From positions 2,480,001 through 2,544,000 of the forward strand of contig NZ_CP043473.1 in the NCBI RefSeq assembly GCF_008275125.1: a DNA stretch of 64,000 bases. The letters are read 5' to 3'. Shown one piece after another: positions 1,602-13,814 of this stretch. The number at the start of each line of letters is the position of its first letter. Position 1 is the first letter of the stretch. Made by a program: the position numbers and the translations under genes. Origin of the DNA: Chromobacterium paludis (lineage in GTDB: Bacteria > Pseudomonadota > Gammaproteobacteria > Burkholderiales > Chromobacteriaceae). Below the pieces are notes generated by a model, which was given only the letters and a program-made list of their open reading frames with translations, was not told where the DNA came from and searched no databases.

Positions 1602-1630
1602 TTTACATAGTTCATGCTTTCTATTAGAAT
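1602..1630 (+). promoter_or_regulatory. Sigma-70 promoter for the candidate sRNA
   Basis: A -35 box TTTACA (1602-1607) and a -10 box TAGAAT (1625-1630) are separated by 17 bp, each matching five of six consensus bases. No coding start follows before the terminator at 1701. The 12-mer AGCATTTGCTCA lies directly upstream of the -35 box. Confidence 0.65.
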
Positions 1631-1636
1631 GTTCGG

Positions 1637-1730
1637 AAGCGAATTCAAGTAGATGCAATCCGCAACCGCCTGGATTCACTTCAAGTCACGTTGATTTTTA
1701 AGCCCGCTCGACAAAGCGGGCTTTTTTTTT
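1637..1730 (+). ncRNA. Candidate small regulatory RNA, about 94 nt
   Basis: A good sigma-70 promoter and a strong intrinsic terminator with a ten-T tail frame about 94 bases without a plausible reading frame. The neighbouring upstream gene points away, so the terminator has no other obvious client. A U-rich stretch (GATTTTTA) precedes the terminator hairpin, as in Hfq-bound sRNAs. The RNA has two copies of TTCAAGT (1644-1650 and 1680-1686). The second extends to TCAAGTCA (1681-1688), a perfect complement of TGACTTGA at 1995-2002, two bases before the porin start codon. Existence is inferred from these signals; the transcript start is estimated from the -10 box. Confidence 0.55.
1701..1730 (+). 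terminator. Intrinsic terminator of the candidate sRNA
   Basis: AGCCCGCT, loop CGACAA, AGCGGGCT, then a run of T. The T-run is on the plus-strand side only, so the terminator acts rightward. Confidence 0.85.
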
Positions 1731-1902
1731 CGCCAACTGCCCACCAACCATCCGCCAACAAGCCCGTCATTACTGAATATAAGTCTTTGATGTATTTTTG
1801 CAACAGCAGGCACCACCCGTTGGATGCTCAATACAAACCAAGACAATTCAATAGCTTACCACGACATAAAATGAAAATTGTAGCGGCAAAAATGTGACAA
1901 TA

Positions 1903-1918
1903 GTTGCTCATCAGCAAC
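1903..1918. promoter_or_regulatory. Dyad upstream of the porin gene
   Basis: GTTGCT-CATC-AGCAAC is a perfect 6-bp inverted repeat about 87 bp before the porin start. It may be an operator or an mRNA-leader hairpin; no regulator can be assigned from sequence alone. Confidence 0.4.
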
Positions 1919-2004
1919 AGTTTTAGCCGCCCTTAGTTGCATTTCCACAACCCAGCCAATAGCATTTGCTCACATTCCTAAACCTAAATAAGGATGACTT
2001 GACC

Positions 2005-3009
2005 ATGAAAAAGAGTCTGATCGCCCTGCTGGTAGCCGCTATGCCGGCCGCCGCTTTCGCTGACGTAACCATCTACGGCGCCATCAAGGCTGGCGTGGAA
2101 AACCTGGACAAGGGTGGCAACACCACCAAGGTCACCAACATCGACGACCTGGGTTCCCGCATCGGCTTCAAGGGTTCCGAAGACCTGGGCAACGGCCTGA
2201 AGACCATCTGGCAAGTTGAAACCGGCTTCAACATCGACGGCACCGCCGGCACCGGCTCCCACAGCGGCACCTTCGCCAACCGCAACTCCTTCCTGGGTCT
2301 GCAAGGCGGCTTCGGTACCGTGCGCTTCGGCAACGTGTCCAACTTCCTGGACAGCGACATGGGCGTGGTTGATACCTGGACCTACAACAGCTCCATCCTG
2401 GGTCTGGGCACCTTCACCCGCGACGGCGACCGTCTGAAGAACTCCGTACGCTACGACCTGCCGTCCGTGGTTCCGGGTCTGACCGCCGCTCTGCAATACG
2501 GCGCGAAGGAAACCCGTGGCGCCGCCACCCCGTCCGACCGCGAAAGCACCATTCTGGGTCTGGGTTACGAGAACAGCGGCTTCTTCGGTAAGTACGCTTA
2601 CGTTCACGAAGCTCCGAAGGCTGCTGCCGGTGTTAACACCGACAAGCACCAACTGGAAGTTGGCTACAACGCCAACAACCTGTTCGTGGGCCTGGGCTAC
2701 AAGCAATCCAAGGGTGACGACGCTAGCTACCAAGGCGACTACACCGCCAAGGACACCAAGGCTGTTGAGTACGCTCTGACCGCCAATTACACCTTCGGCG
2801 CCATCACTCCGAAGTTCACCTACGCTCACGGCGACAACCTGAAGGTTGCTGGCGTGACCAAGGACAACACCGGCTACGACCAATACCTGCTGGGTGCCGA
2901 CTACGCACTGTCCAAGCGCACCACCGTTGGCGCACAATATGGCCAGCTGAAGTTCAAGGGTGCCGACACCCAAAAGGCTCTGGGCCTGAACATGGTTCAC
3001 ACCTTCTAA
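2005..3009 (+). CDS. Gram-negative (betaproteobacterial type) outer-membrane porin
   Basis: This is a 334-residue outer-membrane diffusion channel of the OmpC/Porin_4 type, expected to form a trimeric 16-stranded barrel. A signal peptide (MKKSLIALLVAAMPAAAFA) is cut before DVTIYGAIKAGVE, the typical first strand. GSRIGFKGSEDLGNGLKTIW and RNSFLGLQGGFGTVRFGN are family hallmarks, and the chain ends in Phe as barrel proteins do. I chose ATG 2005 over the in-frame ATG at 1966 because the signal peptide starts there and AAGGA lies at 1990-1994. Codon use is strongly biased, suggesting high expression. The long AT-rich leader and the adjacent sRNA candidate suggest post-transcriptional control. Confidence 0.93.
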   Translation: MKKSLIALLVAAMPAAAFADVTIYGAIKAGVENLDKGGNTTKVTNIDDLGSRIGFKGSEDLGNGLKTIWQVETGFNIDGTAGTGSHSGTFANRNSFLGLQGGFGTVRFGNVSNFLDSDMGVVDTWTYNSSILGLGTFTRDGDRLKNSVRYDLPSVVPGLTAALQYGAKETRGAATPSDRESTILGLGYENSGFFGKYAYVHEAPKAAAGVNTDKHQLEVGYNANNLFVGLGYKQSKGDDASYQGDYTAKDTKAVEYALTANYTFGAITPKFTYAHGDNLKVAGVTKDNTGYDQYLLGADYALSKRTTVGAQYGQLKFKGADTQKALGLNMVHTF

Positions 3010-13448: not shown

Positions 13449-13495
13449 GGCGCGGTTCCTTAGAGAAAAGTGTGGATAGCCTCATCAACCACACC

Positions 13496-13684
13496 CCTCT
13501 GTCCCTGCACCTGAGATTTTCCGGCCGGATAAGCCGTTAGCCCCTTCGGTGGGCGCCGCGCGGGCGCCGCTCTCCAGATTGCGCAGGCCGGCAGCCGCCA
13601 ACCTGATGATACAGTCCTTTTGCCTGAGCGATTAGCGGGTGCGCTTGCGCCTTCGGCGGCGGCCCAGAGCCGCTCTCTCCTGTA
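13496..13684 (-). promoter_or_regulatory. Tandem glycine riboswitch upstream of gcvT
   Basis: Two glycine aptamers are visible on the minus strand. The first (about 13684-13610) has GGAGAGAG, a GCCGAAGG-type core and CGCTCAGGCAAAAGGAC. The second (about 13577-13497) has GGAGAG, CACCGAAGGGG and ATCTCAGGTGCAGGGACAGAG. These are the conserved core strings of the glycine riboswitch family, and the position before gcvT is the usual one. The family normally activates the glycine cleavage genes when glycine is abundant. The transcript must start upstream of 13684. Confidence 0.93.
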
Positions 13685-13814
13685 TGACCCGGCGATTATG
13701 GTGGCGATGTCCCCGCCTTGGCAAGCCGTGTTTATTTCGACATGAAACAGTCAGCAAAAATGTTTTTCAAAGAAAACATTCGCGCCGATTAATTCATAAT
13801 ATATATTCGAAAAC

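Follow-up and report, generated by a model that had tools for sequence, protein, structure and literature searches.

A candidate porin-linked small RNA of Chromobacterium and its predicted pairing with the leaders of other porin genes

Introduction

In Escherichia coli, two small RNAs (sRNAs) encoded beside one porin gene repress another: the 93-nt MicF lies beside ompC and pairs across the ribosome-binding site and start codon of the ompF mRNA, and MicC, beside ompN, represses ompC, for which a dual-regulation idea has been put forward (both as described in PMC5745476). Here we analyze a stretch of 64,000 nucleotides (64 kb; hereafter, the window) from the 4.28-Mb genome of Chromobacterium paludis (contig NZ_CP043473.1, positions 2,480,001 to 2,544,000), which holds a candidate sRNA gene, sRNA1, upstream of a porin gene, P1. 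From sequence comparison, we consider it quite probable that sRNA1 silences two other porin genes, P2 and P3, that a second RNA, sRNA2, encoded beside porin P4, silences P1 (and P3 in one clade), and that the two loci derive from a duplicated unit and serve as cross-wired switches. The case is made by a predicted gene, its conservation and synteny, a like arrangement at the second locus, and complementarity to porin leaders above background.

On this evidence, sRNA1 would work like MicF and MicC: an sRNA beside one porin gene is complementary to the region of the ribosome-binding site and start codon of another, and this complementarity is conserved. Adjacency to a porin holds at 18 of 18 loci for sRNA1 and 18 of 18 for sRNA2, though not for a diverged sRNA1 homologue in genome G011. 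The locus differs in that the sRNA lies upstream of its porin on the same strand, not divergently or on the opposite strand, and in that its host is a betaproteobacterium; unlike MicC, it has a counterpart that shares its seed and appears to be its paralogue. Neither MicF nor MicC appears among the window's two Rfam matches above gathering score or among the 14 matches at E ≤ 5 in 1450-2060, where every match to the sRNA1 region fell below threshold, and because neither model matched and sRNA1 shares its neighbor's strand, we do not file it as a member of either family.

Sibling sRNAs such as OmrA and OmrB are paralogues that share a seed and differ in some of their targets; they stand in tandem, whereas here each sibling adjoins its own porin gene. 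GcvB carries a GU-rich target-binding region. The GcvB model (RF00022) matches weakly over 1581-1730, at 27.4 bits against a curated 42; no GU-rich region of that kind is seen in sRNA1, and we judged the match to be due to chance or to the terminator.

Among the matches listed in the open literature, there is no study of an sRNA in Chromobacterium, and neither those matches nor passages of PMC5745476, PMC12114271, and PMC11019928 describe a Chromobacterium porin sRNA.

A conserved candidate sRNA gene upstream of P1

The sRNA1 and P1 locus is flanked upstream by an open reading frame (ORF) on the minus strand (567-1451), which points away from it. The parts of sRNA1 are as follows.

1602-1630, + strand: sRNA1 promoter, sigma-70-type, from a promoter scan (TTTACA at 1602-1607, 17-nt spacer, TAGAAT at 1625-1630)
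1637-1730, + strand: sRNA1, about 94 nt, its 5' end inferred from the -10 box
1637-1681, + strand: 5' hairpin, structure set by eye
1679-1699, + strand: pairing core, CTTCAAGTCACGTTGATTTTT, which contains TTCAAGTCACGTTGA
1700-1730, + strand: Rho-independent terminator with U tail, a stem at 1700-1723 followed by a T run

A sequence-only reading had proposed this promoter, the strong terminator, two copies of TTCAAGT (at 1644 and 1680), and a sole upstream gene directed away, and all were located where it had put them. Its broader proposal, an orphan gene for an sRNA of the type that regulates porins, gains support from conservation in the genus and from porin complementarity. The fold of 1637-1730 beats 200 of 200 dinucleotide shuffles (z -3.7), a U-rich stretch and a terminator tail are present, and the genome encodes Hfq.

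A BLAST search with 1560-1740 found matches in 18 of the 19 genus genomes and in one of 42 other genomes, where only 26 nt in the terminator matched. P1 adjoins sRNA1 at all 18 genus loci, and the upstream gene was recognized too at 12 of them; this conservation and the constant adjacency of P1 make it very likely that sRNA1 is a real RNA gene. The 15 core nucleotides TTCAAGTCACGTTGA are invariant across the 18 aligned loci, and ATTTACA and GCTTTCT(A/T)TTA are kept at the promoter. The 5' hairpin varies with compensating changes, with six pairs changed on both sides compared to 2.0 in shuffles (0/500); alignment cells are paired in 83.8% of cases overall (outer helix 91.7%, inner helix 70.6%), and the number of pair types is not unusual (63/500 shuffles). 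The by-eye structure was used for these counts because RNAalifold, run on a MAFFT alignment, returned an implausible helix between core and terminator, the structure that our sRNA1 model, R1, nonetheless carries.

The 19th genome, G011, carries a diverged homologue with a similar promoter (model R1, E 3.8e-4). Other matches of R1, at E 0.08 to 1 (L166-L173 among them), were unrelated and read as noise. A search for the core before a T run yielded 21 stretches, 11 from Chromobacterium, one from Xenophilus sp. AP218F, and nine from unrelated groups that we take as chance. The sole G011 match of a 16-nt core pattern (L075) looks by eye like coding sequence and was set aside; one-mismatch matches of that pattern (L081-L084) were left out.

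Lying on the same strand and upstream of P1 at 18 of 18 loci, the element at 1602-1730 might instead act in cis, as a P1 leader or attenuator and not as a separate RNA. This is very improbable, however: the strong terminator ends about 274 nt before the ATG, in a form kept across the genus, a separate conserved promoter-like region adjoins P1, and the core matches the leaders of unlinked porins.

Predicted pairing of sRNA1 with porin leaders

Five P1-related porins are found in the genome at E ≤ 0.001 (one gene shows as two matches), and three of the five have complementary leaders. As background, we used 786 start sites that a crude ORF caller gave for roughly 20% of the genome; at least one of them is false (L139, which lies antisense to a gene read as smc).

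The P2 leader, AAAATCAACTGACTTGAAAGG, forms 18 bp with the sRNA1 core around one bulged base, at -22.4 kcal/mol in this genome, a value equaled by none of the 786 starts and by none of 2000 shuffled cores. When each genome's own sequences are used, with one P2 copy apiece, the duplex lies between -20.6 and -23.9 kcal/mol in 19 of 19 genomes. The string GACTTGAAAGGA is kept in the leaders of 20 of 20 P2 copies from these 19 genomes, the second copy of G011 (L104) being within this count and outside the energy matrix. For P3, the duplex is -19.2 kcal/mol here (0/2000 shuffled cores as good) and -12.9 to -20.1 kcal/mol across 18 genomes; GACTTGGAG is found in 17 of the 19 P3 leaders looked at (the exceptions are G009 and G011), and a partial 20th P3 match (G002, L124) stands outside the P3 counts. 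Duplexes with P4 and P5 are at background against the 786 starts, with P5 leaders taken from G000 only. A first, smaller sample of 256 starts had none as good as P2, none as good as P3, and 70 as good as P1.

P1 itself is the target that the sequence-only reading had favored, on the strength of an exact 8-nt match, TGACTTGA, between 1681-1688 and 1995-2002, and if sRNA1 mainly silenced its neighbor, it would provide local feedback. The match does lie between the Shine-Dalgarno and the ATG, and neither of its sides has changed in any of the 18 genomes that retain sRNA1. Alone, it is not significant: TGACTTGA occurs twice in the window (one occurrence being sRNA1 itself, on the other strand) where 1.07 are expected, and 31 of 100 shuffles do the same. 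Moreover, the sRNA1-P1 duplex, -12.4 kcal/mol here and -12.2 to -13.1 kcal/mol in 18 of 18 genomes, is at background, since 194 of the 786 sampled starts and 193 of 2000 shuffled cores pair as well. The kind of regulator envisaged, an adjacent sRNA of the MicF/MicC type that represses porins, stands, but the choice of the adjacent same-strand P1 as its likely target was probably wrong, and silencing of P1 as the main role of sRNA1 is quite unlikely.

A second unit at the P4 locus and the P1 leader

A second sRNA-like unit, sRNA2, with a predicted RNA of about 91 nt, lies upstream of P4 and has the same build as sRNA1 (promoter, hairpin, core, and terminator). All 18 genomes that have P4 carry it, and its core string GTCAAGTCTA occurs at each of the 18 P4 loci; G011 has no P4 match at E ≤ 1e-115. 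There were 20 P4 matches in all, of which a second G012 porin (L193), without an sRNA2 unit, was aligned and not counted, and a second G017 match (L194, P1 of that genome by position) was left out. Around sRNA2, Rfam gave no match at E ≤ 0.1. The features of P1 that bear on pairing are listed here.

2005-3009, + strand: porin gene P1, an ORF with its ATG at 2005
1937-1965, + strand: probable P1 promoter (TTGCAT, 17-nt spacer, TAGCAT), read by eye in a conserved region and absent from the promoter-scan list; the leader would be about 33 nt
1990-2009, + strand: P1 leader AAGGATGACTTGACCATGAA, the predicted sRNA2 site (6+9+4 bp), which includes the 8-nt sRNA1 match

When the reverse complement AAGGATAGACTTGACC of the sRNA2 core GGTCAAGTCTATCCTT is set against this leader, the core proves to be a near-perfect complement of the Shine-Dalgarno-to-start region. 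The predicted duplex has 19 bp, its three runs separated by single-base bulges, and reaches -25.6 kcal/mol here (0/2000 shuffled cores as good) and -18.8 to -27.3 kcal/mol in 18 of 18 genomes; among the 786 starts, only P1 itself attains this score (0/785 others). The same leader bases thus fit sRNA2 far better than sRNA1, which is a further point against P1 as the main target of sRNA1. The conserved P1 leader is probably better explained by sRNA2 of the P4 locus, and the 8-nt match is a consequence of the seed that sRNA1 and sRNA2 have in common, TCAAGTC. The sRNA2 core also pairs with P3, at -21.3 kcal/mol here (0/2000 shuffled cores as good) and between -10.1 and -23.1 kcal/mol over the genomes, and fits neither P2, P4, nor P5 of this genome.

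Three further sequence elements were seen near these promoters. An inverted repeat, GTTGCTCATCAGCAAC, lies at 1903-1918, upstream of the P1 promoter, has the form GTTG...CAAC in aligned relatives, and is a possible regulator site. The string GCATTTGCTCA occurs both at 1590-1600, upstream of the sRNA1 promoter, and at 1963-1973, in the P1 -10 box and leader, with only the P1 copy well conserved. In the second clade, a palindrome, TTGTAAATGGACATTTACAA, precedes the sRNA2 promoter (L188-L191, also L192) and has TTTACA in common with the sRNA1 promoter.

Origin of the two units and their relatives

In a tree of 31 chosen porins, which included five of the 18 P1 and five of the 18 P4 proteins, P1 groups with P4 as its sister (86/65), and next to the pair branch two sRNA-linked porins of genus g9, those of G034 and G069 (97/88). 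A search with model R1 also recovers sRNA2 in G012 (E 0.02); its match in G002 (E 0.42) falls at the expected position, although the score is no better than noise. Given this apparent sister relationship of P1 and P4, the simplest reading is that an sRNA-porin unit was probably duplicated and that its two copies came to differ in their targets.

Units resembling these sRNAs also lie beside porins in three g9 genomes, where the core is a different one (L164, L165, and a site upstream of L197); model matches came from four g9 genomes, of which G070 was left out. Both the linked sRNA core and the P2 leader of g9 differ from those of Chromobacterium, yet they still match each other in G034 and G069 (22 and 21 of 2000 shuffles as good). 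Matched sRNA-P2 pairs score -21.3 (Chromobacterium) and -20.2 (G034), compared with -5.7 and -12.8 when swapped. A fuller scenario can be drawn, in which one sRNA of the duplicated unit kept the old target P2 and the other was retargeted to P1 of the sister locus, so that P4/sRNA2 would repress P1, P1/sRNA1 would repress P2 and P3 in a cascade, and seeds and leaders would co-evolve between genera; we offer it tentatively, the case for it being close to evenly balanced.

For genus g7, a pattern was predicted from the P2 leader and, together with a terminator, follows just after an ORF read as ilvC in seven of the nine g7 genomes searched (7/13 in all; L235, L245, L237, L238, L252, L240, and L241), an unproven candidate for an sRNA from a 3' untranslated region. 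The stretch scores -24.6 against the P2 leader within G062, and that of G061 scores -25.3 against the G062 leader. We treat it only as a lead, because the reversed control pattern gave 14 hits to the 20 of the real one in 13 genomes and no porin lies within 1.5 kb. A further g7 candidate, L166, is likewise unproven.

Discussion

In the mechanism that we favor, sRNA1 would be transcribed from its own promoter and act in trans, its core pairing with the P2 and P3 leaders at or beside the Shine-Dalgarno and reducing their translation, probably with Hfq. The apparently paralogous sRNA2 would cover the Shine-Dalgarno and start codon of P1 and lower P1, and in one clade P3 too. The most likely mode is an antisense block of translation at the ribosome-binding site, assisted by Hfq. 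With such wiring, P1 would fall when the P4 locus is active, and P2 and P3 would fall when the sRNA1 promoter is active; both loci would stem from duplication of one sRNA-porin unit, producing cross-wired porin switches like those of MicF and MicC. Transcription, Hfq use, repression, common origin, and the switching signals are all parts that we infer from sequence.

An alternative is that sRNA1 regulates broadly and acts mainly on genes other than porins. Its core is more conserved than one target requires, and in the sample, which covers about 20% of the genome, four of the 786 other starts pair with sRNA1 no worse than P3 does. Also, several genomes of the genus carry the string TGACTTGAGA some 90 nt ahead of a gene read as argF (site L028, G000 1136328, + strand, TGACTTGAGACCAGCG; duplex -16.5 kcal/mol here), so not every recurring match is a porin, and this string is a possible further target of sRNA1. 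On the other side stand the three of five porins with complementary leaders, and the fact that one of the four starts equal to P3 is the smc antisense one. TGACTTGA followed by an ATG occurs at 15 places in the genome (5 for a reversed control pattern), of which six open ORFs of at least 200 amino acids: P1, P2, two antisense ones (to smc and mutY, as read), and two others whose duplexes are weak, at -14.1 and -13.2 (genes read as hscA and DedA-like). Among the genus-wide matches listed, P1 and P2 recur, along with the smc antisense string and the argF-like upstream string. Taken together, a mainly non-porin role is unlikely.

The four starts that equal P3 and the recurring argF-like match also weigh against the cross-wired scheme that we favor, as do several other observations. 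The duplex energies take no account of how target and sRNA fold, and in the fold of sRNA1 itself part of the core is already base-paired (mean unpaired probability 0.31 in this genome and 0.45 over 18). The P3 links are uneven: in the second clade, sRNA1-P3 weakens to between -12.9 and -15.3 kcal/mol, in G011 it is absent (-7.5), eight of the 786 other starts match sRNA2 as well as P3 does, and sRNA2-P3 drops to -10.1 kcal/mol in G012. The G011 homologue of sRNA1 has no porin in the 1.5 kb fetched on each side. As to origin, the P1/P4 sister grouping is only modestly supported, the linked porin of G026 (g9) groups apart from P1 and P4, the linked sRNA of G026 forms a poor duplex with the P2 leader of that genome (equaled by 753 of 2000 shuffles), and the core of G034 fits the G026 P2 leader better (-18.1 versus -11.6).

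If the scheme is true, the MicF/MicC logic occurs independently in betaproteobacteria, and the two traceable porin-sRNA units, with seeds assigned to different porins, offer a clean case of the origin of an sRNA-target pair. In Chromobacterium, it would also supply a post-transcriptional network, open to testing, for the permeability of the outer membrane.

Two minor observations may be added. PMC12114271 reports a porin of C. subtsugae, U6115_05110, that is strongly changed in a quorum-sensing transcriptome. Elsewhere in the window, a tandem glycine riboswitch, with two aptamers above the gathering score, lies at 13489-13692 on the minus strand.
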